DNA of 37,529 nucleotides. It comes from Rhodospirillaceae bacterium. Its GTDB lineage: Bacteria > Pseudomonadota > Alphaproteobacteria > CACIAM-22H2. Each line of letters starts with the position of its first letter. Position 1 is the first letter of the stretch. A program made the position numbers and the translations under genes. Location: positions 1-37,529 of the forward strand of contig JALHMR010000044.1 of the NCBI GenBank assembly GCA_022843945.1, given 5' to 3'. Under the pieces are notes generated by a model. It did not search any database. It saw nothing but the letters and a program-made list of their open reading frames with translations, and was not told the origin of the DNA. Below are positions 4,585 to 35,082 of this stretch, piece after piece.

Positions 4585-4952
4585 ACGCCGCCCAGCGCCC
4601 GGGTGACCGCCGCCAGCAACGTGTCCGGCGGAAAAGGCTTGCGCAGCGTCTCGATCGCCCCGAAGGCCTTGGCGGCGGGCAGGGCGTTGGCGTAGCCCGA
4701 CCGTCCACCCCCCGACATGGCAATGACCCGGGCCTGGGGATTAAGGCGCAGCAGCTCCTGGATGGCCTCCAGGCCGTCCTTTTCGGGCATGATCAGATCG
4801 GTGATCACGACGTCGGGCTTCGCGCGGCGGTAGGCATCGAGGCCGGAATCGGCGCTGGTCGCCGTCACGACCTGATAGTGGGCCGCCTCGAGAATCTTAC
4901 GCACCAATTCGAGCATGAACGGCTCGTCATCGATGACGAGGATCGTCTTCAT
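4581..4952 (-). CDS. Single-domain response regulator (receiver only)
   Basis: The 123 residues form just one CheY-like receiver: the acidic pair D8 D9, phosphoacceptor D52 in VVITDLIMPEKDG, S80 in IAMSGGG, and K105 in RKPFPPD. All phosphotransfer residues are present, so it should be phosphorylated, but it has no output domain and acts by protein contact. No histidine kinase is next to it, so the partner is unknown. It is transcribed toward the alkyltransferase gene, and their stop codons share CTAG. A minus-strand TATAAA -10 element lies upstream. Confidence 0.93.
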   Translation of the reverse strand: MKTILVIDDEPFMLELVRKILEAAHYQVVTATSADSGLDAYRRAKPDVVITDLIMPEKDGLEAIQELLRLNPQARVIAMSGGGRSGYANALPAAKAFGAIETLRKPFPPDTLLAAVTRALGGV

Positions 4953-6729: not shown

Positions 6730-7902
6730 ATGACAGCGATCCCCAAGCCGGCCACCCGGCCGCATTTTCCCCATTTCTCCTCAGGCCCCTGTGCCAAGCG
6801 TCCCGGTTGGACTCTTGCCCTGCTGGCCGATGCCGCCCTCGGGCGCTCCCATCGTTCCAAGCTCGGCAAGGCCAAGCTCGGCGAGCTGATCGACCGCACC
6901 CGGGCGATCCTTGGCATCCCGGCGGATTACCGCATCGGCATCGTCCCCGCCTCCGACACCGGCGCCGTCGAAATGGCGCTCTGGTCGCTGCTCGGCGCGC
7001 GCGGCGTCGACGTTCTGGCCTGGGAGAGCTTCGGCGCCGGCTGGGTCACCGACATCGTCAAGCAGCTCAAGCTCACCGACGTGCGCACCCTGGAGGCGCC
7101 GTACGGCAAGCTGCCGGACCTCAAGCAGGTCTCGCCGGATCGCGATGTGGTTTTCACCTGGAACGGCACGACCTCGGGCGTGCGTGTGCCCAACGGTGAC
7201 TGGATCAGCGCCAAGCGCGAAGGTCTGACGATCTGCGACGCGACCTCGGCGGCCTTCGCCATGACGCTGCCCTGGGACAAGCTCGATGTCACCACCTGGT
7301 CCTGGCAGAAGGTGATGGGCGGCGAGGGCCAGCACGGCATGATCGTGCTCAGCCCGCGCGCCGTCGAGCGGCTCACCAGCTACAAGCCGGCCTGGCCGCT
7401 GCCCAAGATCTTCCGCCTGACCCAGGGCGGCAAGCTGATCGAAGGCGTGTTCAAGGGTGAGACGATCAACACGCCCTCCATGCTGGCAGTCGAAGACCAG
7501 CTCGATGCGCTGAGATGGGCCGAGCGGATCGGCGGCCTGTCGGCCCTGATGGCGCGCTCGGAAGCCAATCTGGCGGCGATCGAGAAATGGGCGGCGCAAG
7601 CCGGCTGGGTCGGCTTTCTGGCCGAGGACAAGGCGATCCGCTCCTGTACCTCGATCTGCCTGACGATCAGCGATCCGGCGGTGGCCAAGCTCGACGCCGA
7701 AGGCCGGGCCGCGGTGTCCAAGAAGCTGGTCGCGGCGCTGGAGGCGGAGAAGGTTGCCTACGACATCGACGCCTATCGCGACGCGCCACCCGGCCTGCGG
7801 ATCTGGGGTGGGGCGACTGTCGAGACGCGCGACCTCGAGGCGCTCTTCCCCTGGCTCGACTGGGCCTATGCCAAGGTAAAGCCCAAGGCAGCCGCGGCCT
7901 AG
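6730..7902 (+). CDS. serC: Phosphoserine aminotransferase
   Basis: The 390-residue protein is the long alphaproteobacterial form of SerC. It converts 3-phosphohydroxypyruvate and glutamate to 3-phosphoserine and 2-oxoglutarate, the second step of serine synthesis, using PLP; the same enzyme often serves PLP biosynthesis. [16 protein letters not shown] at the start is family-specific, and the PLP lysine is K194 in [13 protein letters not shown]. The gene is followed by serA, the pathway's first enzyme, in the usual alphaproteobacterial order. A strong promoter and a two-hairpin leader precede it, so both genes are probably controlled together at the level of translation of serC. Confidence 0.96.
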
Positions 7903-7924
7903 CCGCGGGCTCGCGCATTTATTC

Positions 7925-7951
7925 GCCGGCTACGCGCCGGCCGTCATTTTT
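7925..7951 (+). terminator. Hairpin plus T-run between serC and serA (terminator or attenuator)
   Basis: GCCGGC (7925-7930) and GCCGGC (7936-7941), a self-complementary 6-mer repeated around TACGC, form a GC-rich stem, followed by five T residues at 7947-7951. It looks like a weak intrinsic terminator that would lower serA relative to serC transcription. The serA Shine-Dalgarno AAGGA is just downstream. Confidence 0.45.
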
Positions 7952-7967
7952 CCCAAGGATATAGGCC

Positions 7968-9545
7968 ATGCCCAAGGTCCTGATCGCCGACAGTCTCAGC
8001 CCCCGTGCCGTCGAAATCTTTCGGGAGCGCGGCATCGAGGCCGACGTGAAGACCGGTCTCAAGCCGGAAGAGCTCAAGGCGATCATCGGCAACTATGACG
8101 GGCTCGCGGTGCGCTCCAGCACCAAGGTGACCAAGGACCTGCTCGCCGAAGCGCGTCATCTCAAGGTGGTCGGACGCGCCGGCATCGGCGTCGACAATGT
8201 CGATGTCCCGGCCGCGACGGCCCGCGGCGTGGTGGTCATGAACACGCCCTTCGGCAACGCCATCACCACCGCCGAGCACGCCATCGCCATGATGTTCGCG
8301 CTGGCCCGCCAGGTGCCGGCCGCCGACCGTTCGACCCAGGGCGGCAAGTGGGAGAAGACCCGTTTCATGGGCACCGAGGTGACCGGCAAGACGCTGGGCA
8401 TCATCGGCTGCGGCAACATCGGCACCATCGTCGCTGACCGGGCGCTGGGCCTGAAGATGAAGGTCATCGCCTATGATCCCTATCTTTCCCTCGAGCGGGC
8501 CCAGTCGCTGGGTGTGGAGAAAGTGGAGCTCGACACGCTGTTCCAGCGCGCGGACTTCATCTCGCTGCACACGCCACTGACCGACGCGACCAAGAACATC
8601 ATCAACGCCAAGGCCATCGGCAGGATGCGCAAGGGTGTGCGCATCATCAATTGCGCGCGCGGCGGTCTCCTGGTCGAGGAGGATGTGAAAGCCGGCCTTG
8701 AATCCGGCACCATCGCCGGCGTTGGCCTCGATGTCTTCCCGGTCGAGCCGCCGAAATCGAGCCCGCTCTTCGGCCGCGACGACGTCGTCTGCACGCCTCA
8801 TCTGGGTGCTTCGACCAGCGAGGCACAGGAGAATGTGGCGCTCCAGGTGGCCGAGCAGATATCGGACTTTTTGCTGACGGGTGCCGTGGTCAACGCCGTC
8901 AACATGCCGTCGGTCTCGGCCGAGGACGCGCCCAAGCTGCGGCCCTACATGACGCTGGCCAAGAACATCGGCAGCTTCATCGGCCAGCTTGCGACCTGTG
9001 AGATCAAGGCGGTGCGCATCGAATACGAAGGTCATGCCGCGAAGCTCAACGCCAAGCCGCTGACGGCCTGCGTGCTGACCGGCTTGCTGGCGCCACAGCT
9101 CGAGACGGTCAACATGGTCAACGCGCCGATCCTGGCGCGCGAGCGCAATATCGCGGTGACCGAGATCCAGCACGACCGCGCGGTCGACTACCAGACGCTG
9201 ATCCGGGTCACCGTGGACTGCGAGGACCGGCCGCGTCGCGTCGCCGGCTCACTGCTCGGCAACGACCGGCCGCGAGTGGTGGAGATCGACGAGATTGCCA
9301 TCGAGGCCGAGTTCGCGCCGCATACGCTCTACATCCGCAACCAGGACAAGCCGGGCTTCGTTGGCAATCTTGGCCGCACGCTGGGTGATTCCGGCATCAA
9401 TATCGCCACCTTCCACATGGGGCGTATCGAGACCGGCGGTGATGCGATCTGCCTCGTGCTCGTCGATCAGCCGTTGAGCGATATCGTGCTGGGCAAGGTG
9501 CGCGGCCTTCCCCACGTGGTGAAGGCGCGCCTCCTGACGTTCTGA
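7968..9545 (+). CDS. serA: D-3-phosphoglycerate dehydrogenase
   Basis: The 525-residue protein is the long form of SerA, which oxidises 3-phosphoglycerate to 3-phosphohydroxypyruvate with NAD+, the committed step of serine synthesis. The Rossmann motif is GIIGCGNIG, followed by the active-site blocks NCARGG and CTPHLGASTSEAQ. After the catalytic part comes the intervening domain and a C-terminal ACT domain (LYIRNQDKPGFVGNLG), which in this family binds serine for feedback control. AAGGA lies 8 nt before the ATG. It is 65 bp downstream of serC and meets the QueC-like gene tail to tail 14 bp after its stop. Confidence 0.97.
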   Translation: MPKVLIADSLSPRAVEIFRERGIEADVKTGLKPEELKAIIGNYDGLAVRSSTKVTKDLLAEARHLKVVGRAGIGVDNVDVPAATARGVVVMNTPFGNAITTAEHAIAMMFALARQVPAADRSTQGGKWEKTRFMGTEVTGKTLGIIGCGNIGTIVADRALGLKMKVIAYDPYLSLERAQSLGVEKVELDTLFQRADFISLHTPLTDATKNIINAKAIGRMRKGVRIINCARGGLLVEEDVKAGLESGTIAGVGLDVFPVEPPKSSPLFGRDDVVCTPHLGASTSEAQENVALQVAEQISDFLLTGAVVNAVNMPSVSAEDAPKLRPYMTLAKNIGSFIGQLATCEIKAVRIEYEGHAAKLNAKPLTACVLTGLLAPQLETVNMVNAPILARERNIAVTEIQHDRAVDYQTLIRVTVDCEDRPRRVAGSLLGNDRPRVVEIDEIAIEAEFAPHTLYIRNQDKPGFVGNLGRTLGDSGINIATFHMGRIETGGDAICLVLVDQPLSDIVLGKVRGLPHVVKARLLTF

Positions 9546-9559
9546 ACCCTGGTCGGGGG

Positions 9560-10948
9560 CTAGGTCGTCTGAATCGGCCCCGGGCCGGCGGGGACCGACA
9601 CGGCCCGGCCGATCTGCTGCGCCAGGCTCGGCGTCGGGAGGGTTCCGGGCGCGCGCGGCGCCGCGTTGGTTCTCGTCAGGTTCATGAGCGCGCGGCGAAG
9701 GACCTTCACGGGCCAGAGCCACTTCTCCAGGTCCTGACGGTAAGGCAGCAGCGCCCGGTTTATCAGCCAGTTGACCTGGACGGCGCGCAGCCACGCGCCA
9801 CCAGTAACGCCGGTGCGGCGTGCCGAATCGATGATATCGATGAGGTAGTTGACCTGCGCGGCGTGGCGCGCATTCAGGCAGAGGGCGTCGAGCACCCCGG
9901 CGCGCACCGGAAAGGCCGGCCCGGGATCACGGCCGATGGCAAGATAGTTGAGCTGAGTACGCACGCACTTCTCGCAGATGCCGCAATTCTCGCCGGTCAG
10001 CGGCCCAGCCCAGCAGACACGCAGGCGATCCGACAGCGCGGGAACGCTGGCGACGAGCTCGGTGCGCGCCGAGCGCTCGAAGCCCTGCCCTTCGGGGCGC
10101 AGCACGAAGCGCCCGCCCGACAGCAGGCAGTCGAGCCCGGGCTGCGAACCCCAGGGCCAGAAGTGGAAGATGTGGGTCAGGTCACTGCCGAACAGGCCGA
10201 TATCGCAGGCGCCGGAGAAGTGATGGAGTGCGCCGGCGAGCGCTGCCATGTGATCCATCTCCCAGCGCGTCTCCGCCACTTCGCGCCAGTTGGTGCGGAT
10301 GGTGGTCAGTGATACACCCACCGCGTCGAGGGCCGCCTTGGCGCCGGCGCGTGCGGTTTCGAACGCCGCCTCCGCGGATAGCGGGATATCGAAGCCGTGG
10401 ACCAGCACGGCGGTCTCGACCGCGGCGGTGCGATAACCGGCATGACCGGAGAGATGGCGGATCAGGGTGAAGCAGGCGTCGATCCCGCCGGAGAAGGCGA
10501 CGACCGCCCTGGACTGGCCGGGAGGGGCAGGCGGCAGGTCGCTCAGGATCTCCGTCGCCTCGATCGGGATCAGCGCGTAGCGGTCCGGCATGAGCTGGTT
10601 CCAGGCCTCGTTCATCTCCTCCATGTTGCGCAGCATGGTGGCGGTAACGGGGCCCTGGATGACTAGGCGGGCCTTCTCGCGCATCGCCACGAACAGCGTG
10701 GCGATGGCGGCAAAGTCGAGTGACTCGATGGCCGGCAGGTCGAGCGGCGTGTTGATCTCCCAGAAGATCTGGTGCGTTTCGGGCGCCTGGCCGGGCCGCT
10801 GCAGCGTGAAATCGGCCTCACGGCGGAGGAGGCCGTCGGTCGTGCGGCGCTCGCGGGCCACGACGGTCATCGTCGTATCGGTGGCGAGCCGGCGCGCAAT
10901 AAGACTGCGCGCTCCGCCCAGATTGTCCTTGGAATGGAGAATGTTCAT
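9560..10948 (-). CDS. Orphan QueC-like PP-loop ATPase of unknown role
   Basis: With the start at 10948 the protein has 462 residues. Residues 1-145 are an unrecognised N-terminal domain. Residues 150-350 resemble the PP-loop ATP pyrophosphatase QueC: VVAFSGGIDACFTL holds the PP-loop SGGxD (153-157), but the serine that normally follows is Ala158. GENCGICEKCVRT with an earlier cysteine gives C-x9-C-x2-C-x2-C, the QueC zinc site. QueC makes 7-cyano-7-deazaguanine; no other queuosine gene is near, and the protein is about twice QueC size, so another nucleotide-activated amidation or ligation is likely. Similar fusions occur in polysaccharide and anti-phage loci, but neither is seen here. An upstream in-frame ATG (10984) lacks a ribosome-binding site. 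Confidence 0.72.
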   Translation of the reverse strand: MNILHSKDNLGGARSLIARRLATDTTMTVVARERRTTDGLLRREADFTLQRPGQAPETHQIFWEINTPLDLPAIESLDFAAIATLFVAMREKARLVIQGPVTATMLRNMEEMNEAWNQLMPDRYALIPIEATEILSDLPPAPPGQSRAVVAFSGGIDACFTLIRHLSGHAGYRTAAVETAVLVHGFDIPLSAEAAFETARAGAKAALDAVGVSLTTIRTNWREVAETRWEMDHMAALAGALHHFSGACDIGLFGSDLTHIFHFWPWGSQPGLDCLLSGGRFVLRPEGQGFERSARTELVASVPALSDRLRVCWAGPLTGENCGICEKCVRTQLNYLAIGRDPGPAFPVRAGVLDALCLNARHAAQVNYLIDIIDSARRTGVTGGAWLRAVQVNWLINRALLPYRQDLEKWLWPVKVLRRALMNLTRTNAAPRAPGTLPTPSLAQQIGRAVSVPAGPGPIQTT

Positions 10949-16948: not shown

Positions 16949-19000
16949 ATGGCGCCGGACGGCCAAACGCCTGATCTGGAAAAGGAATCACGTCCCGGCC
17001 GAGCGCCGGTGGCGAAGGGCGCGATCGTCGTCGAGGATCGCTATGTCATCCATCCGGACCGGCCGGCGCCCGAGCATGCGACGCCCCAGACCCCCGCGGT
17101 CATGGCCGACGACCCGATGTCCCCCGGCGAAGCGCGGGTGGCGCTGATCTGCGATATCGAGCCGCTGCCCCGCATCGAGGTGATGGACAAGCTGCGCGGC
17201 CTGGCGCGCCCCGGCCTGACCCAGATCGCGGCCTTCGGCCCGGTGGATTTCCCCGGAGCCAATGGCCAGCGGCTGGCCGTGGTGGTTCATCCCGGACAAG
17301 GAGGCCGCCTGGTGGCACCGGGTGCCGCCACCGTCCCGGTGATGAGCACCGAGACGATCTTCGAGACCGTGGTCCGGCCGATCGTCATCGGTCTGACCGA
17401 GATGTTCCACCGCAACCAGACTCATCGCGGCATCCGTCCCGACAACATCTTTTTCAGCGACGCGAGCCAGACGCGCGTGGTGCTGGGCCAGAGCGTCACG
17501 GCGCCGGCCGGTTACTATCAGCCCCCCGCTTTCGAGACCATCGAATGCGCCATGGCGGATCCCGAGGGCAAGGGGACCGGCACGCGCGCCGAGGACATGT
17601 TCTCGCTCGGCGTGGTCATGCTCGCGCTGTGCACCGGCAAGATCCCGGGAGCGGGAGTCGACCCGGAGGAGATGCTCGCGCGGCGCATCGAGAAGGGCTC
17701 GCTCGATGCCTATGCCGATGCGCAGGCGCTCCCGCGCGATTTGATCGACGGACTGCGCGGCCTGCTATCCGACGATTCCCGCGAACGCTGGGGCCTCGAG
17801 AACTTCAAGAGCTGGCTGGAAGGAAACCGCGTCGGTGCGCCGCGCGTCGGTGCGACCATCCGGGCGCATCAGGGCTTTGATTTCGGCGGCAAGAAGTGGT
17901 GGACCGCGGCGGGCACCGCGATGGCGCTTTGTCGCCGGCCGGAACAGGGCGCCAAGGCGCTGCGCTCGGGCGCGGTGCTGGATTGGATGAAGCGCAGCCT
18001 GCCCGACAACATCCCGGTCGACGCGCTGTCCTCCGTGCTGGCGGAGTTCGAGGTTTCCGGCGGCGGCACCGACCAGATGCTGCTGGCCAAGGCCTCGATC
18101 GCCATGGATCCGCAGGCGCCGATCCGCTTCTCAGGCATGAGTGTGCGCCTCGATGGTCTGGGTTCGGCCATGGTCACGGCCATGCGCAAACCTGGCGGCG
18201 GCGCCCTGTTCGGCGACCTGCTCAAGGCCAACCTGCCGTCCTACTGGCTCAACAGCCAGCCCAAACACGTCAACCGCGGCATCGGCGTCACCGCGCATCT
18301 CGAAAAGCTCGGTCGCTGGGTGAGCGACGGCGGGCCCGGTGCTGGCATGGAACGCTGCCTCTACGACCTCAATCCCAACCTGCCCTGCCTGAGTCCGATC
18401 ACCGGCGGTCGCTGGGTTTCCGAACCGTCGGAGCTGCTGCCGGCCATCGACGCTGCCGCCTCGGCCGGCGGACTCAGCCGCCAGCCGATCGATCGCCACA
18501 TCGCCGCCTTTCTCGCCTCGCGCTCGCACGCCGATACGACACAGCTCCTCGGCCTGATGCAGCCACAGGGGCTCGATGAGCACTCGGCCATCGGCACGCT
18601 GCGCCTGCTGGCGGAGTTGCAATCGAGCTTCAAGGCGAAATCCTTGCCCGGGCTGGGTAACTACTGCGCCGAGCTTCTGAAGCCGGTGATCGACACGTTC
18701 CATCACCGCAGGCGGCGCGGCAAGCTGCACGAGGCGGTGATGGCCGTGGCGCGGTCGGGCAATCTGCCGGCCCTGCTGAAGCTGATCGATGATGCCGATT
18801 TCAAGAAGATCGATCGGCGCGGCTTCGAGAAAGCACGCGAGCTTTTCTCCAAGGCGGAGTCCGACCTTTCCCACCTGGAGCGCGACGCTCCGCGACGTAA
18901 GGAAGAGGCGCGCCGCAAGGGGCGGGAGTCGGCGGCCCTGATCTCCTCGGGCCTGTCGGTCGTTACGGTGGCCCTGCTGCTGTTCCTCAAATGGCTGTAA
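16949..19000 (+). CDS. Tail-anchored pseudokinase (protein-kinase-like fold, degenerate catalytic residues)
   Basis: The 683-residue protein has a kinase-like N-terminal third. THRGIRPDNIFF (from residue 158) aligns with the HRDxKPxN catalytic loop, but the Asp is Gly161 and the Lys is Arg; the DFG region reads VVLGQSV with no aspartate, and no VAIK-type lysine is visible. Later blocks (GTRAEDMFSLGVVMLALCTGKIP) match subdomains VIII-IX. It therefore looks catalytically dead. Residues 300-640 are unrecognised, the end is highly charged, and a single transmembrane segment (SVVTVALLLFLKWL) closes the protein, so the bulk should lie in the cytoplasm on the membrane. The last 10 bp overlap the next membrane-protein gene. 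A scaffold or signalling role is inferred. Confidence 0.75.
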   Translation: MAPDGQTPDLEKESRPGRAPVAKGAIVVEDRYVIHPDRPAPEHATPQTPAVMADDPMSPGEARVALICDIEPLPRIEVMDKLRGLARPGLTQIAAFGPVDFPGANGQRLAVVVHPGQGGRLVAPGAATVPVMSTETIFETVVRPIVIGLTEMFHRNQTHRGIRPDNIFFSDASQTRVVLGQSVTAPAGYYQPPAFETIECAMADPEGKGTGTRAEDMFSLGVVMLALCTGKIPGAGVDPEEMLARRIEKGSLDAYADAQALPRDLIDGLRGLLSDDSRERWGLENFKSWLEGNRVGAPRVGATIRAHQGFDFGGKKWWTAAGTAMALCRRPEQGAKALRSGAVLDWMKRSLPDNIPVDALSSVLAEFEVSGGGTDQMLLAKASIAMDPQAPIRFSGMSVRLDGLGSAMVTAMRKPGGGALFGDLLKANLPSYWLNSQPKHVNRGIGVTAHLEKLGRWVSDGGPGAGMERCLYDLNPNLPCLSPITGGRWVSEPSELLPAIDAAASAGGLSRQPIDRHIAAFLASRSHADTTQLLGLMQPQGLDEHSAIGTLRLLAELQSSFKAKSLPGLGNYCAELLKPVIDTFHHRRRRGKLHEAVMAVARSGNLPALLKLIDDADFKKIDRRGFEKARELFSKAESDLSHLERDAPRRKEEARRKGRESAALISSGLSVVTVALLLFLKWL

Positions 19001-24977: not shown

Positions 24978-26084
24978 CTACACGGGTCTTGTGCCACTCT
25001 TGCGCGGCTCGCCGACAGTGCCGCGCGGATTGCCGCCAGCCCCCGGCAGGAACTCCACGCTCTTGGCCGGCGCCAGGCTGGTGCCGTGGGATGGCGGAAA
25101 ACCGTAGGTCCGATGGATGATGTAGTTCGGTCGGGTCTTGGACTCGAGAAAGATTGAGTTGATATAGAGACCGTTGATGCCCGTTGTCAGCAACTGCATG
25201 CCGCCGAGGAGCAGCAATGTCGCCATGATCATCGTCCATCCCTGGGTCACGTCGGCGACGACGAATTTCTGAACGACAACGTAGATCAGAAACAAGAATG
25301 CAAATACGGACGTCACGGCACCAAGAAGAATCGATAGCAGCAGAGGGGCGGACGAGAACGAAATCAGCGCTGAAAAAAAGAAGTTATAGAAGACTTTTGG
25401 GCTGCTCATCGGGAATTTCGTCATGCCCGAAGGCCGGGCCTGGCGGCGGTATTTGACAAGCGTCTGCTTGAAACCGATCCAGTAGATCATGCCGCGCACG
25501 AACGGCAGCTTCTCCTTCATCTCGATGAGATGCTCGACAACTCGCCGGGAGAGGAGTTTGAAATCGCCCGCCTCGACCAGGAAATTTATGTTCGTTGTCC
25601 GCCTCAAGAGCCGATAGGCCAGGCGGGTCAGGAGGAGCTTCTCGCGGGATTCTCCCGCACGTTCGATGCGTACCGTGTTGACGACATCAACGTCGCCCCC
25701 CTCGCGCCAGGCCTGCAGGAGCTCGGGAATCAGCTCGGGCGGATCCTGGAGATCGGCATCCATGTAGATGACAAGATCGCCGACCGTATGCTGCATGCCG
25801 GCCAACACGCAGGGAGAGACGCCGAAATTACGCGACATCGTGATCAGACGTATGTCGTCGTGGCCCTCCGTGGCCGCGACGATCACGTCTTCAGACCCGT
25901 CCGTCGAAGCGTCATTGACGAAAACCAGCTCGTAACTCGATAGCTGGCTGTCTTCAACGAGCCGACCCAGGACCGCCCGCAGACGGGCGATCAATTCCGG
26001 CAGGACCTCGGCCTCGTTAAAAAACGACAGCACGACGGACAATGTGGGCTGCCGCTGGAGTTTGGTCATCTCGGATGCCAGCAT
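24978..26084 (-). CDS. GtrB/DPM1-type glycosyltransferase (GT2) with two C-terminal membrane helices
   Basis: The 368-residue protein has a GT2 nucleotide-sugar domain (LSVVLSFFNEAEVLPELI at the start, FVNDASTDGS, and the metal-binding DAD in IYMDADLQDPPE) followed by two hydrophobic spans (about residues 235-310). This layout is that of polyprenyl-phosphate sugar transferases such as GtrB and ArnC, which load glucose or a related sugar onto undecaprenyl phosphate at the inner membrane. The C-terminal 60 residues are polar and variable. GtrA flippase is absent nearby. The larger membrane protein upstream is the likely acceptor-side transferase. Start 26084 (GGGG upstream) is preferred over ATG 26069. 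Confidence 0.9.
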   Translation of the reverse strand: MLASEMTKLQRQPTLSVVLSFFNEAEVLPELIARLRAVLGRLVEDSQLSSYELVFVNDASTDGSEDVIVAATEGHDDIRLITMSRNFGVSPCVLAGMQHTVGDLVIYMDADLQDPPELIPELLQAWREGGDVDVVNTVRIERAGESREKLLLTRLAYRLLRRTTNINFLVEAGDFKLLSRRVVEHLIEMKEKLPFVRGMIYWIGFKQTLVKYRRQARPSGMTKFPMSSPKVFYNFFFSALISFSSAPLLLSILLGAVTSVFAFLFLIYVVVQKFVVADVTQGWTMIMATLLLLGGMQLLTTGINGLYINSIFLESKTRPNYIIHRTYGFPPSHGTSLAPAKSVEFLPGAGGNPRGTVGEPRKSGTRPV

Positions 26085-30811: not shown

Positions 30812-31933
30812 ATGGAACCGATAGCTGTATACCTCGTCGATCGAAGCACCCTCTTCCGCGACGGCATCAAGAGATTGCTGTCGGAAGGGGGCTTCATCGT
30901 TAAGCGCGAAGCAAGCCATCTCCAGGATCTCCTGACACGCGTCGACAGCGAAGACGCGCCGCATATCATTCTCACGGACATCGCTGCCGGCGATCCGCTC
31001 TTCCCGCAGCACTTGGGCGCGTTGCGCGAGCGCTTCGCCGACGTCCGCATCGTGATCCTGACGGATGAGCTCACGCCCGAGCGCATCGGTGTCGCCGTTC
31101 AGGGCGGCGCCGACGGCTACCTGCTGAAAGATATCTCGGTCGACGCCCTCCGGCAGTCGCTGCGGCTCGTCATGCTGGGCGAGAAAGTCATGCCTGCCGA
31201 CCTCGCGACCTCGGTTTCCGGCGGCGAGGATCTCGAAGCACGGCGCCGCTCGCACAAGGCTGTCCTGGCCAAGATGTCGGGACGCGAGACCGAAGTGCTG
31301 CGTTACCTGCTGCAAGGGCTTTCCAATAAGGCCATAGGAAATCAGCTCAATATTTCCGAAGGGACCGTGAAGGTCCACCTCAAGGGCATCCTTAAAAAGA
31401 TCAACGTCCGCAACCGTACGCAGGCCGTAATCTGGGCGATGGTCAACGGCATCGCCAGCTCGCTGGCCCCGACGGTGGCAGCGGCACCCGCCCATGGCGC
31501 GCCGCCGGGCAGCGACATCGCGGTGACGCCGCGGCCGACCATCGCGCCGGCCGGCTTTAATGCCGCTCCGGGCAAGTCGGCGCTCAAGGTGGTTATCGTC
31601 GAGGATGAGCTGCTGGTCGCCATGTACATCGAGCAGACGGTCCGTGATCTTGGCTACGAGGTCATTGGCCCGGCCGGCACTCTCGCGGAAGCCAAAAAGC
31701 TGTTCGAGGTCTCGGACTTCGATGTCGCCATCCTCGACGTGCGGCTCCGCCAGGGCGAGTTGATCTATCCCGCGATTGAGATCCTGCGCGAGCGGCGCAT
31801 CCCCTTCGTGTTCATCACCGCCTACGGGGCCGAGGGTCTCGACCGCCAGTTCGGCCGGCATCCCGTGCTCAAGAAGCCCTTCTCGCAGCGCGAGCTGCAG
31901 CGCTGCATCCGCAACGTCGTCGCGCTCCAGTAG
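30812..31933 (+). CDS. Response regulator with REC-HTH(LuxR)-REC architecture
   Basis: The 373-residue protein has three domains. Receiver 1 (1-125) has phosphoacceptor D56, T84 and K106. The LuxR/NarL helix-turn-helix (about 153-213) contains SGRETEVLRYLLQGLSNKAI and ISEGTVKVHLKGILKKINV. After an Ala/Pro linker (214-256) comes receiver 2 (258-373) with E264, D265, phosphoacceptor D309 and a KKPFS lysine. NarL-type proteins normally end at the HTH; a second CheY-like receiver after it is unusual and would let two phosphorylation inputs meet. The HTH is almost identical to that of the paralogue at 34390. No histidine kinase is near. Start 30812 has AGGG upstream. A 7-bp dyad surrounds the promoter. 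Confidence 0.9.
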   Translation: MEPIAVYLVDRSTLFRDGIKRLLSEGGFIVKREASHLQDLLTRVDSEDAPHIILTDIAAGDPLFPQHLGALRERFADVRIVILTDELTPERIGVAVQGGADGYLLKDISVDALRQSLRLVMLGEKVMPADLATSVSGGEDLEARRRSHKAVLAKMSGRETEVLRYLLQGLSNKAIGNQLNISEGTVKVHLKGILKKINVRNRTQAVIWAMVNGIASSLAPTVAAAPAHGAPPGSDIAVTPRPTIAPAGFNAAPGKSALKVVIVEDELLVAMYIEQTVRDLGYEVIGPAGTLAEAKKLFEVSDFDVAILDVRLRQGELIYPAIEILRERRIPFVFITAYGAEGLDRQFGRHPVLKKPFSQRELQRCIRNVVALQ

Positions 31934-31966
31934 TCCAGCTTGATTGCCTGCCTGCAGGCGTCATCC

Positions 31967-31983
31967 GCGCGACACCGTCGCGC
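31967..31983 (+). terminator. Hairpin after the REC-HTH-REC gene
   Basis: GCGCGAC (31967-31973) and GTCGCGC (31977-31983) form a perfect 7-bp stem with a 3-nt loop, 33 nt beyond the stop codon. No T-run follows. A second, smaller stem (GCCTG/CAGGC) lies just upstream. Confidence 0.35.
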
Positions 31984-32015
31984 TGAAACCTTCGATCCTG
32001 TGCTGCGTTCCGCTA

Positions 32016-32030
32016 AGACGACATTCGTCT
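32016..32030. promoter_or_regulatory. Perfect palindrome before the hemerythrin start
   Basis: AGACGA-CAT-TCGTCT is a perfect 6-3-6 inverted repeat whose 3' end touches the ribosome-binding GGAGG of the hemerythrin gene. It could be an operator or a hairpin that limits translation. Confidence 0.35.
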
Positions 32031-32041
32031 GGGAGGGTTTC

Positions 32042-32515
32042 GTGCACAAAACCACCGACGCCGGCAGCCTGCCCAACCTTCTCGATCGGCTCCACCATGA
32101 CCACGAAGGGGTCAAGGACCTGTTCGAGAAGATCTGTGAGGGGCTCGACGACGAGTCGCTTGCCGCGACTTTCAGCGAGCTGCGCGCGGCGCTGCTGGCC
32201 CACGCCGAGGCCGAGGAGAAGTGCTTTTACGGTCGGCTGCTCAAGGAAGATGACGAATCACGCTTCTTCGCCCTCAAGGCCGACGTCGAGCACGGCCTGG
32301 TCGAGGGTCTTCTCAAGCGGCTCACGGACAGTGCCGAGAAGGGTTCGGACGAGTGGCTGGCGGGGTGCATCGTGCTCAGGGAGCTGGTGGAGCATCACAT
32401 CGACGAGGAGGAGGGCGAAGGCTTCGACATCGCCCGCGAGATACTCGAGGACGGCGATCTGGAGAAGCTGGGCGCCGAGTTCGAGCACGAGAAGCAGCGC
32501 CTGATGAAGGTCTGA
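32042..32515 (+). CDS. Hemerythrin-like (HHE) domain protein
   Basis: The 157-residue all-helical protein has the ligands of a di-iron hemerythrin fold in order: LHHDHEGVKDLF, HAEAEEKCF, a central HGLVEGLL, and LVEHHIDEEEGEGFDI. Such domains bind O2, NO or iron and are used in oxygen or nitrosative stress, or as iron-sulfur repair partners. GTG 32042 is chosen because GGAGG lies just before it and because the family starts here; in-frame ATG 31940 would add 34 basic residues. It lies between the REC-HTH-REC regulator and an opposing LuxR-type gene, so stress-sensing regulation is likely (inference). Confidence 0.85.
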   Translation: MHKTTDAGSLPNLLDRLHHDHEGVKDLFEKICEGLDDESLAATFSELRAALLAHAEAEEKCFYGRLLKEDDESRFFALKADVEHGLVEGLLKRLTDSAEKGSDEWLAGCIVLRELVEHHIDEEEGEGFDIAREILEDGDLEKLGAEFEHEKQRLMKV

Positions 32516-32532
32516 CGCCGGCGGGCTCCGGG

Positions 32533-33162
32533 TTACTGCACGCTTTGCTTCTGGCAGTAGAAGACCGCGACAGCCGTGCGGTTCGGCATGCCGAGCTTGC
32601 TGATGATGGAGCGCACCACCGATTTGGCGCGGCTCAGCGGCAGCCCGAGACGGGCCGCGATCCGGCTATTCGGAGCGCCCTGTCCGAGAAGGTCGAGGAC
32701 CGACGCTTCCTCCGGGGTCAGGCTGCCGAGAGAATCGACGCGTAGCGCGTCGGATCGGATGTGCTGGAGAACCCCGTCCGGGATGACGATCAGCCCCTCC
32801 AGCGAGAGGTCGATGACCTGGGGCAGATTCTTGGTGAGATGATGAACAAAGATCAGCCGCTGCCCCGGGGCCATGACGCTGAGCCCATGCAGCAGCTGGT
32901 CGTTGCGCAACACCACGATGACCGGCGGGTGGGCTGATGCCAGGCGCCGGCCGATGCTTCGGGCACGGCGGGCCTCGGCGATAAGCTCTCGCGCGCCGAG
33001 GAGGATCATGTCGGCGTTCTGCATCTCGGCCTTTCGGCGATTGAAGATCGCCGAGGAACAGACGCCGCCGACAGCGTAACGCGTCGTGCGCAATGCGTTC
33101 TCAAGCGAAGCAGCCAGCTTCTTGTCGCGTGTGACGATCAATACCCGACGCGCGCTCTCCAT
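32533..33162 (-). CDS. LuxR-type regulator with degenerate receiver domain
   Basis: The 209-residue protein has a receiver-like N-terminal domain (RRVLIVTRDKKLAASLENAL) that lacks the phosphoacceptor aspartate: the strand reads ADMILLGAREL instead of an Asp-ending one, and the lysine position is also unclear. A LuxR-type helix-turn-helix closes the protein (about residues 148-205: LTPEEASVLDLLGQGAPNSRIA, then AKSVVRSIISKLGMPNRT). It is likely a phosphorylation-independent regulator. It faces the hemerythrin gene tail to tail, 17 bp apart. AGGA precedes the ATG. Compared with the two NarL-type paralogues nearby it is a more distant relative. Confidence 0.82.
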   Translation of the reverse strand: MESARRVLIVTRDKKLAASLENALRTTRYAVGGVCSSAIFNRRKAEMQNADMILLGARELIAEARRARSIGRRLASAHPPVIVVLRNDQLLHGLSVMAPGQRLIFVHHLTKNLPQVIDLSLEGLIVIPDGVLQHIRSDALRVDSLGSLTPEEASVLDLLGQGAPNSRIAARLGLPLSRAKSVVRSIISKLGMPNRTAVAVFYCQKQSVQ

Positions 33163-33556
33163 TCGTCCTGCCTCTTGCTCTGAAGAACCGAGCCGCGCCC
33201 CGACCTCGCCACACGTGCCTTCGCTTGTCTCCCATCTGCCTGGCTAACGGCCACGCTTGGACGGCCGTAGTGGATTTATCTGGCGCTGGCGCGCGCGTCA
33301 CACAGGAGGCAAAGGGAAGCTGGCCAAGCGCGCCGCTTTTCAACTCAACGGCTGGTGTGGCGACCGAACGGCGGCGGCCTACGCGTTTGAAGTAACCCGG
33401 CCGATGCCCGGATTGGCCGTCTGCTCGCTTTCTTCTGGCGCCTTATCCCGTATCTTGGCGATCCGAGGGCAGCCCGCTGCCCGACGCGCATCCGTAGCGG
33501 CGATAAGCATTTTCTCAAGACTCCGCGACTCCGTACCCTCCCACCGGAGCCACGGA

Positions 33557-33585
33557 CCGGAGGATGGGGTCATCCCATCCTCCGG
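33557..33585. repeat. Perfect 12-bp hairpin in a divergent intergenic region
   Basis: CCGGAGGATGGG (33557-33568) and CCCATCCTCCGG (33574-33585) are perfect complements with a 5-nt loop, GTCAT. As no gene points toward it, it may be the 3' end of an unannotated small RNA, a regulatory site or a repeat relic. Confidence 0.5.
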
Positions 33586-33589
33586 GCTT

Positions 33590-33619
33590 ATCAGAGCCGC
33601 GGGGATCAGAGCCGCGGGG
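33590..33619. repeat. Exact 15-bp tandem duplication
   Basis: The unit ATCAGAGCCGCGGGG occurs twice, head to tail (33590-33604 and 33605-33619), directly after the hairpin. It looks like a replication-slippage duplication or a pair of binding sites. Confidence 0.6.
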
Positions 33620-33739
33620 AACCTTTGCCGCGTTCAGGCATTTTTATGACGTCGGTCGGTGAGTTTTCTCACAGTGCGTCGCGGCCAAGCTTGCTAACCA
33701 GCCATGCGTTGCGATGCCGCGCAGGACGCGAGGTCGGTC

Positions 33740-34138
33740 ATGGATTCCAGCAGCGCCCGTATTCTCGTGGTCGAAGACGATTCCATCCTCAGGATGTTCA
33801 TCGTCGACGGTTTACGCGATATCGGCTTTCGCGTCGAGGCCGTGGCGACGGCTGCGGAGGCCCTGGGCCTGCTGCACAGCCCCGGCAGTTTCGACGGTGC
33901 GGTGATCGATTTCGGGCTGCCGGATCACCGCGGGGACGTCCTGGCTGCCGAGATCCGCAAGATCAGTATCGATATGCCGGTGGTGATTGCCAGCGGCTAT
34001 CACGAGGACATGCTGCGCGACCGTTTCGCCGCAGACGGCCGGACGGTGTTGTTGGGAAAGCCGTATGACGGGCTTCAGCTGCGCCAAGCCCTGAGCAGGC
34101 TGGGTGTCATGCCCGGTCCGGTTGTCGCCGCCTCCTGA
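33740..34138 (+). CDS. Single-domain response regulator
   Basis: The 132-residue protein is a CheY/FixJ-type receiver: D13 and D14 in VVEDDSIL, phosphoacceptor D57 in AVIDFGLPDHRGD, the Thr/Ser position in IASGY, and the conserved lysine in LLGKPYDG. No output domain follows. Start ATG 33740 has GAGG 6 nt upstream; an earlier ATG (33704) is less likely. It lies between the degenerate LuxR protein and the NarL-type gene. A T-tailed stem-loop follows its stop. Kinase and target are unknown. Confidence 0.9.
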   Translation: MDSSSARILVVEDDSILRMFIVDGLRDIGFRVEAVATAAEALGLLHSPGSFDGAVIDFGLPDHRGDVLAAEIRKISIDMPVVIASGYHEDMLRDRFAADGRTVLLGKPYDGLQLRQALSRLGVMPGPVVAAS

Positions 34139-34148
34139 TCATATCCTC

Positions 34149-34187
34149 AGCGCCGTGGCGCTAAGAGCAGGGCGCGAAACGCCTTTT
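34149..34187 (+). terminator. Stem-loops and T-run after the receiver gene
   Basis: A first stem (AGCGC/GCGCT, 34149-34162) is followed by GGCG-CGAAA-CGCC (34171-34183) and four T residues (34184-34187), a modest intrinsic terminator. Confidence 0.5.
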
Positions 34188-34211
34188 GGCCTCGCGACAT
34201 TCTTGTGATTT

Positions 34212-34235
34212 TCGTGTGAGCGTCCTGTCACACGA
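34212..34235. promoter_or_regulatory. Perfect 8-8-8 dyad upstream of the NarL-type gene
   Basis: TCGTGTGA (34212-34219) and TCACACGA (34228-34235) are perfect inverted 8-mers with an 8-bp spacer, a good geometry for a dimeric regulator. It lies 155 bp before the gene; it could serve as an upstream operator or activator site. Confidence 0.45.
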
Positions 34236-34327
34236 GTTCAATACCTCTTCGGGCTTACTTAGCATTTTTCCTCTTTAACCCAATTCGCCCTCAAACAATC
34301 TGAAGGAGCGCGAAACAATCTTGGCCG

Positions 34328-34348
34328 TGACCGTGGGCAATACGGTCA
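34328..34348. promoter_or_regulatory. Second dyad (7-7-7) before the NarL-type gene
   Basis: TGACCGT (34328-34334) and ACGGTCA (34342-34348) are perfect inverted 7-mers with a 7-bp spacer, about 41 bp before the start codon. The sequence differs from the first dyad, so it is either a different operator or a hairpin in the leader. Confidence 0.45.
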
Positions 34349-34389
34349 GGGCATCCAAATAGAACAACTGTTCGAATAAGGGATAGCCA

Positions 34390-35082
34390 ATGACACCTTT
34401 TCTCGTGCTGGTGGTGGAGCGAAATCGCCTTTTTCGCGAAGGTCTCAAGCGGATCTTCGAAGGCTCGCCGTTTGAAGTCCGCCGCGAGGCGGGTAACTTC
34501 GACGAGATCCTGGGCACGCCCAATGACGAAATACCGCCGGATCTGGTGCTCACCGACCTGGCTGAGAACGGCGCCAACTTCGTTGAGCAGATCTCGACGC
34601 TGCGGTCACGCCTGCCGGGCCTGCGGATCGTGGTGCTGACGGATCGCATCTCGAACGCCAGCCTGGCGACGGCGCTCGATGCCGGCGTCGATGGCTATCT
34701 CCTCAAGGATATGTCGGCCGACGCCCTGCAGCAGTCGCTGCGGCTGGTCATGTTGGGCGAGAAGGTGTTCCCCACCGGCCTTGCGCATCTGCTCATCGCC
34801 GGGCGCCTGAAGGAGCCGGGCCGGACCAACGGTCTGGCGCAGCTGGCCACGCCGGGCCTGTCCGATCGCGAAGTCGAGATCCTCACCTGTCTGCTCAACG
34901 GCATGTCCAACAAGGTCATCGCCAATCAGCTGCACATCTCCGAGGGCACGGTCAAAGTGCACCTCAAGGGCATCCTGAAGAAGATCAACGTCCGCAATCG
35001 CACCCAGGCAGCCATCTGGGCGATCAACAACGGTATTCACCAGCCGGCGGACTCGATGAAGAGCATGGCTCGGGCCTACTGA
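34390..35082 (+). CDS. NarL/LuxR-type response regulator
   Basis: The 230-residue protein has a receiver domain (1-125) with phosphoacceptor D56, T and K in VVLTD and YLLKDMS, and a LuxR helix-turn-helix at the end (LSDREVEILTCLLNGMSNKVI, then ISEGTVKVHLKGILKKINV). E10 replaces one acidic residue of the metal site. It is a close paralogue of the first two domains of the REC-HTH-REC protein at 30812; the HTH helices match nearly residue for residue, so both probably bind the same DNA motif. AAGGG precedes the ATG. Two perfect dyads lie upstream. Confidence 0.93.
   Translation: MTPFLVLVVERNRLFREGLKRIFEGSPFEVRREAGNFDEILGTPNDEIPPDLVLTDLAENGANFVEQISTLRSRLPGLRIVVLTDRISNASLATALDAGVDGYLLKDMSADALQQSLRLVMLGEKVFPTGLAHLLIAGRLKEPGRTNGLAQLATPGLSDREVEILTCLLNGMSNKVIANQLHISEGTVKVHLKGILKKINVRNRTQAAIWAINNGIHQPADSMKSMARAY

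Follow-up and report, generated by a model that had tools for sequence, protein, structure and literature searches.

What controls a group of response regulators that has no kinase gene next to it, and what is the role of a second receiver placed behind the DNA-binding domain of one of them? These questions are raised by positions 30812-35082 of a 37,529-nt stretch of DNA from a Rhodospirillaceae bacterium (contig JALHMR010000044.1; "the window" in the following is this whole stretch). An initial annotation had placed there a regulator with a receiver (REC), a helix-turn-helix (HTH) and a further receiver (RHR, with the receivers REC1 and REC2), a hemerythrin, a degenerate LuxR protein (LuxRdeg), a lone receiver and a NarL-type paralogue (NarL2), and all of these were recovered, by Pfam, which supplied our domain calls, or for LuxRdeg by an AlphaFold model (Table 1). 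In our best explanation, to which we assign a probability of about 0.5, RHR, NarL2 and LuxRdeg would be the surviving regulatory core of a surface-structure locus; a duplication would have produced two NarL-type genes, of which RHR acquired by fusion a receiver from the class serving HWE kinases. The parts are of known kinds; the combination is new. The initial interpretation, by which such a group integrates signals from remote kinases, is partly supported.

The fused gene itself appears to be genuine. In the linker between the HTH and REC2, G+C content at codon position 3 is 0.86 and each other forward frame contains a stop, and this coding composition together with the two interrupted frames makes a sequencing frameshift an unlikely source of the fusion. 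The architecture had been called rare, and it is: among the matches listed it occurs in one of 496 distinct genomes (searches of 23, 385, 82 and 18 genomes, overlaps removed), a count for which one scan scored at most five candidates per genome and listed E≤1e-30, two others listed E≤1e-45, and which could miss a fusion whose second receiver aligns poorly, while none of 1668 plasmid records with a match reaches 80% cover. Among the matches listed in one contig scan, none at 77 loci extends beyond RHR residue 251, and in the 40-row family none of the 38 relatives exceeds 51 residues after the HTH, compared with 159 in RHR (residues 215-373).

RHR and NarL2 are sisters in a tree of 48 rows (support 97/85), within a family clade of 40 rows that includes both (100/99) and is accompanied by five outgroup rows. 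Nearest to the pair are rows from loci that encode the secretion protein HfaB (support 97/84), in the genomes G315 and G021 (G, L and C numbers are our handles), the latter from the window organism's own family. The receivers of RHR and NarL2 share 57 of 125 residues, and the end branch of RHR is longer (1.15 versus 0.46). The HTHs had been described as nearly identical, which holds for 46 of 60 residues and for a recognition stretch with one difference in 27; the HTH of NarL2 is, however, equally close to that of the relative at locus L135 (46/60), so that the likeness is a family feature rather than a property of the pair. Another duplication within the family is seen in NarL2-like tandems with overlapping stop-to-stop frames at L149 (G216, 8190-9742) and L281 (G102, 7442-9033); both copies at L149 read G-G at the acid pair.

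A pseudo-receiver has the receiver fold and lacks at least one of the five site residues DD1, DD2, D, T and K (definition from the available part of PMC12632262). REC1 (D-R-D-T-K), NarL2 (E-R-D-T-K) and LuxRdeg, in which all five are absent by eye on the modelled strands, are pseudo-receivers by this definition, whereas REC2 and the lone receiver retain all five by eye and are true receivers. At DD2, the second acid, which binds Mg, an acidic residue is missing from 38 of the 39 family rows that align there, both window proteins among them (L148 has E, and L059 is truncated at that position); the replacements are R, P, S, A, G, H or Q, with Arg in 10 of 39 rows, again including both window proteins, and the outgroup reads D-D-D-T-K in all five rows. 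Retention of the other residues is incomplete, with the phospho-Asp kept in 23 of 38 aligned rows, Thr or Ser in 23 of 40 and Lys in 29 of 40. Helices alpha1 and alpha5, which the accessible text of PMC12632262 gives as the dimer face of NarL/FixJ regulators, average 2.44 bits, compared with 1.72 bits for random receiver columns (none of 10000 draws as high). Taken together, the five site residues carry no less information than random columns (2.19 bits, a value reached by 12% of draws), since DD1, D and Lys have often been retained. What is lost as a rule in the family is therefore the Mg ligand, and we do not claim decay of the whole pocket. We infer from these alignments that REC1 and NarL2 are probably phospho-blind. 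Dimer exchange, which the initial annotation had suggested, is plausible given that conservation within the receiver is concentrated in the presumed dimer helices; the competition for kinases that it also proposed is unlikely for the NarL-type receivers because both are pseudo-receivers.

REC2 is of a different kind. Among NCBIfam models it comes closest to PhyR (74.2 bits, cut-off 240) and PRK13435 (62.8 bits, cut-off 151), and the PhyR match of RHR covers the receiver portion only, so that RHR falls outside PhyR proper. FATGUY receivers are marked by the motif letters FATGY, and REC2, which reads FITAYG, falls outside this group as well. Among its ten best relatives in its own genome, seven have an HWE_HK match within 2 kb or in frame (C26, C13, C18, C78, C36, C11 and C4, with those of C11 and C4 barely exceeding the cut-off) and three have no HWE neighbour (C27, C20, C57); RHR itself has no kinase nearby. 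By this gene association REC2 belongs to the class of receivers serving HWE kinases. An unfused run of such genes is found in G266, where a NarL2-like gene overlaps by ATGGTTGA a REC2-like receiver gene (35% identity, 111 residues). Next come a PAS-HWE_HK gene and a PAS-HisKA kinase, such that the parts of RHR lie there as neighbours. A second, weaker pairing of NarL2-like and REC2-like genes occurs at L223 (50 bits, 0.7 kb apart). Because of the unfused run in G266, RHR looks like a fusion, one which would have returned phospho-control to a phospho-blind regulator.

The conserved partner of the NarL-type gene is LuxRdeg. Its receiver had been called degenerate, and indeed no Pfam receiver match was obtained, yet the AlphaFold model (10 aligned relatives, pLDDT 85.3) predicts a (beta-alpha)5 fold plus an HTH. 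Foldseek relates the model to VraR, RcsB, VpsT and NarL (E 2e-8 to 1e-7 for the first three) at modest TM-scores of 0.28-0.59, which we think reflect a differing angle between the two modelled domains. VpsT, a c-di-GMP-binding LuxR-type matrix regulator, resembles LuxRdeg in this fold match (E 1e-7) and in combining a pseudo-receiver with a LuxR HTH. The c-di-GMP motif of VpsT-type proteins is W[FLM][TS]R, and inspection by eye did not reveal it in either RHR or NarL2. As a single query against 385 genomes of the class (E≤1e-12), LuxRdeg found four genomes, its own and G315, G367 and G237, and all three non-self matches lie 0.3-4.1 kb from the best NarL2 homologue of the respective genome. A LuxRdeg-like gene is present within 5 kb at 10 of 41 NarL2-like loci, always on the opposite strand, convergent with the NarL gene at nine and divergent at one (L137); L137 and L143 are the exceptions to a uniform convergent arrangement. 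L250-L253, the four top-ranking loci of one scan and all from the order of G367, add four more convergent pairs; their flanks of about 1.5 kb are too short to show HfaB. L252 comes from G413, which shares a match end (669874) with a hit in the Azospirillum brasilense plasmid p4, so that a strain of this species probably carries the pair. With a LuxRdeg profile (A2), the seven matches of at least 224 bits among the 385 genomes are all its own seeds and hence uncounted; a non-seed match of 84.6 bits in G287 occupies the LuxRdeg position of an HfaB locus. The relative loci searched do not preserve the full cluster: none of the 25 inspected has a hemerythrin, and lone-receiver matches are limited to a gene at L150, 3.6 kb away from the NarL gene there, and to receivers within kinases (L136, L276). 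The conserved co-occurrence that the initial annotation proposed to look for thus exists for the regulator pair in some relatives and fails for the full cluster.

Beside many of these pairs we found a CsgG/HfaB-type secretion protein, a secreted repeat protein that we call AFD, and a gene at the HfaA position. The secretion proteins exceed the cut-off of the CsgG family PF03783 (20.8 bits) with 80.8 bits at L145 and 85.3 bits at L279; the one protein scored against the NCBIfam HfaB equivalog (L145, 152.6 bits) stays below its cut-off of 300. The name HfaA is positional, as proteins at this place gave no Pfam or NCBIfam match where scanned. An HfaB profile (A1) matches 34 of the 385 genomes, and its scores separate into a high group of 12 matches (392-534 bits) and a low group of 28 (86-172 bits). 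A NarL2-like gene lies within 4.5 kb (midpoints) at all 12 high-scoring loci (10 from the profile scan plus L145 and L058) and at none of 20 lower-scoring loci, taken from the 28 matches. Two further high-scoring loci, L279 and L280, agree, which brings the loci with a family member within 5 kb to 14 of 14. The commonest order is NarL→ ←HfaA ←LuxRdeg HfaB→ AFD→. At L222 the gene in the LuxRdeg position is a weak match, and at other HfaB loci LuxRdeg is missing or the NarL gene is displaced or duplicated. Taking all 41 family loci, a non-random draw in which a few flanks are short, HfaB occurs within 5 kb in 14 and LuxRdeg alone in two.

Six AFD proteins beside high-scoring HfaB genes (Table 1) each contain 1-3 copies of an [SV]xATAVxNN-like repeat; those of L145 and L279 have no Pfam match. 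The AFD proteins are candidates for the matrix subunit of a curli-like system that has no name so far. In G037, five full-length high-scoring HfaB genes and a fragment are spread over three places on contig 1, each with NarL2-like genes (L144, which is C1 462500-481000, L220 and L221), and two of the five full copies are about 5 and about 10 kb away from the nearest NarL2-like gene. A single frame close to the G315 fibre locus (L135 10786-14994) encodes CheB-CheR-PAS-HisKA-HATPase-REC-REC with a C-terminal LuxR HTH, an unusual one-piece sensor-regulator.

In the genome of the window organism (assembly 96.7% complete), the A1 profile detected no HfaB, and among the 23 genomes of the order only G021 has one. 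Across the order's 22 other genomes, NarL2 homologues (E≤1e-25) are present in G005 and G021 and were not found in G022, the sole other genome of the genus. By position, the hemerythrin takes the HfaA place of relatives, and the lone receiver and NarL2 take that of HfaB and AFD. Because the genome has no HfaB operon, we read the regulators as stranded, so that RHR, NarL2 and LuxRdeg would be the core of regulators that stayed behind when the fibre genes were lost.

Several findings speak against this reading of a core left by fibre loss and completed by fusion. The exact order of genes is found at only 6 of the 14 HfaB loci (L058, L135, L145, L222, L279, L280), and all five seeds of the A1 profile had been chosen beside NarL2 homologues; loci found through HfaB alone are restricted to G287 and G117, whose NarL2-like genes are weak (117 and 106 bits) and on long branches. 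Neither HfaB nor LuxRdeg lies within 5 kb at 25 of the 41 family loci, and as a label on the tree HfaB needs 9 changes compared with a shuffled mean of 12.0 (16 of 500 shuffles as low), which is weak clustering; the fibre linkage is thus not a rule of the family. A REC2-like gene is found near a NarL2-like gene at 2 of 41 loci only. A single-sequence AlphaFold model of RHR reached a pLDDT of 42.6 and was set aside, so a contact between REC2 and the HTH is conjecture. The analysis turned up neither a target gene nor a binding site, and upstream k-mers do not rise above the null (the best 8-mer shared among 17 upstream regions has a count of 5, which is matched by 11 of 100 null sets). In the window organism, the CsgG family gives one match, at 16.3 bits and under the cut-off, and the window contains no remnants of HfaA, HfaB, AFD or MFE (best E 0.089), for which reason the regulators may have arrived alone. 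If they did, or if they were kept for another regulon such as one for exopolysaccharide, the HfaB-like gene order would be incidental and no fibre would have been lost. The many family loci without either neighbour fit this explanation, as does the occurrence of the pair without HfaB in G367 (NarL→ ←LuxRdeg LuxR→, with genes for polysaccharide export and sugar nucleotides nearby), at a locus of a Pelagibius metagenome-assembled genome (within 6 kb) and at all of L250-L253 within their short flanks; in addition, glycosyltransferases adjoin the cluster itself (35107) and lie 4.7 kb upstream (24981-26084). The closest tree neighbours of RHR and NarL2, on the other hand, come from HfaB loci, one of them in the same family, and we regard arrival or retention without fibre loss as somewhat unlikely.

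The state of REC1 and NarL2 can also be understood differently. Phospho-Asp, Thr and Lys are intact in both, which counts against phospho-blindness in that weak phosphorylation might still take place, and the two might be ordinary phospho-responsive NarL regulators with kinases elsewhere, the odd acid pocket merely lowering their phosphorylation and the lone receiver, which keeps its site residues by eye, acting as a phosphate sink. A genome with 109 receiver matches and 16 HWE matches would provide for such a network. This is nevertheless improbable, considering the Arg at DD2 in both proteins, the non-acidic residue at this position in nearly the whole family, the replacement of the phospho-Asp in 15 of 38 rows, and the lack of a matching lone receiver beside the NarL gene at the relative loci examined. 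The same Arg might instead lock REC1 and NarL2 in an active-like state, in the manner of the D13K variant of CheY, so that both would always be on and set by expression, with REC2 as the sole switch. D13K makes CheY constitutively active, as cited in the available part of PMC4671073, and the Arg recurs in a quarter of the aligned rows (10/39); according to the same part of that source, however, D13K is not activating in EpsW, and the variety of residues at DD2 argues against a fixed lock as a general feature of the family, which makes a permanently active pair rather unlikely too.

Under our preferred explanation, the locus would derive from an alphaproteobacterial CsgG/HfaB (curli or holdfast-anchor) type locus whose fibre genes were lost here, with the NarL-type gene duplicated in the lineage and the copy RHR fused to a receiver of the HWE-kinase class. 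REC1 and NarL2 would dimerise through alpha1 and alpha5 independently of phosphorylation, possibly also with LuxRdeg or with each other, and act by abundance or partner choice, like CsgD or BldM/WhiI; NarL2 and RHR would read similar DNA sites. REC2 would be the sole phospho-input of RHR, and its phosphorylation by distant HWE/HisKA2 kinases might release or block the adjacent HTH. In PhyR too, phosphorylation of a C-terminal receiver controls the output domain in front of it, which makes this receiver an analogue for REC2. Stress-type signals could in this way reach a regulon first controlled without phosphorylation, the targets here probably being matrix or polysaccharide genes. More broadly, and as a tentative proposal that we consider possible but not probable, a phospho-blind pair of a NarL2-type regulator and LuxRdeg might serve the HfaB/AFD fibre of Alphaproteobacteria as CsgD serves curli, with RHR made phosphorylatable again by its grafted receiver and a stress-type kinase network gating the matrix regulon after fibre loss.

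The absence of a kinase near the cluster was confirmed, since four kinase queries gave E values of at least 0.28 in the window and none of the 16 HWE matches of the genome lies on the contig. Control by remote kinases, as initially proposed, is plausible for REC2, with its intact site and its relatives near HWE kinases, but not for the pseudo-receivers REC1 and NarL2. At the relative loci, kinases are neither always adjacent nor absent: BLAST queries detect one within 5 kb at 9 of 41 NarL2-like loci, among them a GAF-PAS-HisKA_2 kinase adjoining the Azospirillum brasilense gene of L152, and in G237 Pfam adds a HisKA_2 fragment where a contig ends. Of the 14 HfaB loci, two have a kinase by BLAST queries, or three if the G237 fragment is included. 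A constantly adjacent kinase in relatives, which the initial annotation had named as a finding that would contradict it, is therefore not seen, although the annotation missed the kinases near some relatives as well as the surface-fibre context of part of the family.

Among known systems, CsgD is similar in having a LuxR-type HTH behind a receiver-like domain, and in part of the relatives a CsgG-type secretion gene is adjacent; CsgD is counted among pseudo-receiver proteins in the available text of PMC12632262. NarL2 (78.8 bits) and RHR (68.4 bits) nevertheless remain far below the NCBIfam CsgD equivalog cut-off of 250, NarL2 is nearer to NarL, and the relatives differ from curli loci in their HfaB-type CsgG and AFD and, often, a second regulator on the opposite strand. 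As csgD is absent from Alphaproteobacteria according to the available part of Dueholm 2012 (PMC3521004), the linkage described here offers a candidate for the missing CsgD counterpart at some CsgG/HfaB-type loci of this class. BldM and WhiI of Streptomyces are atypical orphan response regulators that heterodimerise (accessible part of PMC4125116), and the two regulators here, likewise atypical orphans, could form homo- and heterodimers; the genes of the window family differ from them in being linked with conserved orientation, and their heterodimer is putative, from linkage and the conserved alpha1/alpha5. PhyR and the FATGUY receivers (MrrA, SdrG, Sma0114) resemble REC2 in the best model matches and in the location of its own-genome relatives near HWE kinases, whereas RHR differs by its DNA-binding HTH and its N-terminal pseudo-receiver and scores under the cut-offs of these families. 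The likeness to the HfaA/HfaB/HfaD holdfast anchor of Caulobacter (available part of PMC6707917) lies in the secretion protein of the relatives, which matches PF03783 and, below its cut-off, the HfaB model; the 20 lower-scoring HfaB loci, presumably of holdfast type, have no NarL2-like neighbour. FlcA of Azospirillum (orphan regulator AZOLI_1403, available text of PMC4618731) was considered by description only as a namesake and was set aside. The available part of a review on amyloid gene regulation (PMC8072697) makes no mention of alphaproteobacteria, HfaB or holdfast, and in a literature search of partial coverage we found neither the term REC-HTH-REC nor a title devoted to this architecture or to LuxR-type regulators at HfaB loci. 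A 2025 review calls the on/off switching of pseudo-receivers a mystery (available text of PMC12632262), and RHR might be a natural case in which control by phosphorylation has seemingly returned to a pseudo-receiver regulator at the opposite end of the protein; the unfused NarL2 in the same cluster serves as a built-in control.

Table 1. Features of the cluster and AFD proteins of relatives (positions in the window, or in the locus named)
Feature	Position	Strand	Basis
RHR, REC-HTH-REC regulator, 373 aa	30812..31933	+	one open frame, coding composition throughout
REC1 of RHR, pseudo-receiver D-R-D-T-K, second acid Arg	30812..31186	+	site-residue alignment
GerE/LuxR HTH of RHR	31262..31453	+	Pfam GerE at residues 155-209; 46/60 identical to NarL2
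Ala/Pro-rich linker of RHR, HTH to REC2	31454..31579	+	residues 215-256, 42 residues
REC2 of RHR, intact receiver (E-D, D, T, K by eye), PhyR/HWE-partner class	31580..31930	+	Pfam, NCBIfam
Hemerythrin, at HfaA-gene position of several relatives	32042..32515 (Pfam-scanned frame 31940-32512)	+	Pfam, NCBIfam
LuxRdeg, fully degenerate receiver and LuxR HTH, conserved partner	32533..33162	-	Pfam GerE only; AlphaFold, Foldseek
Lone receiver, site residues intact by eye	33740..34138 (frame may begin 33704)	+	Pfam
Perfect 7-8-7 dyad, upstream of NarL2	34213..34234	.	sequence
Perfect 7-7-7 dyad, upstream of NarL2	34328..34348	.	sequence
NarL2, pseudo-receiver E-R-D-T-K and HTH, RHR sister paralogue	34390..35082	+	Pfam REC and GerE, tree
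AFD protein examined	L135 4849-5850		
AFD protein examined	L137 3374-4204		
AFD protein examined	L145 4694-5821		
AFD protein examined	L147 11913-13706		
AFD protein examined	L058 9748-10902		
AFD protein examined	L279 5298-6329		

Of the two dyads upstream of NarL2, the 7-8-7 dyad has no second copy in the window and none upstream of RHR, and the 7-7-7 dyad has three other matches in the window with three mismatches each (as many in 6 of 100 shuffles) and no counterpart upstream of RHR. Elsewhere in the window there are a further receiver (4605-4943) and a Pkinase match under its cut-off (17009-18997). The sole NCBIfam match of the hemerythrin is to the ribosome-binding persister protein PA2171, at 64.5 bits compared with a cut-off of 190.

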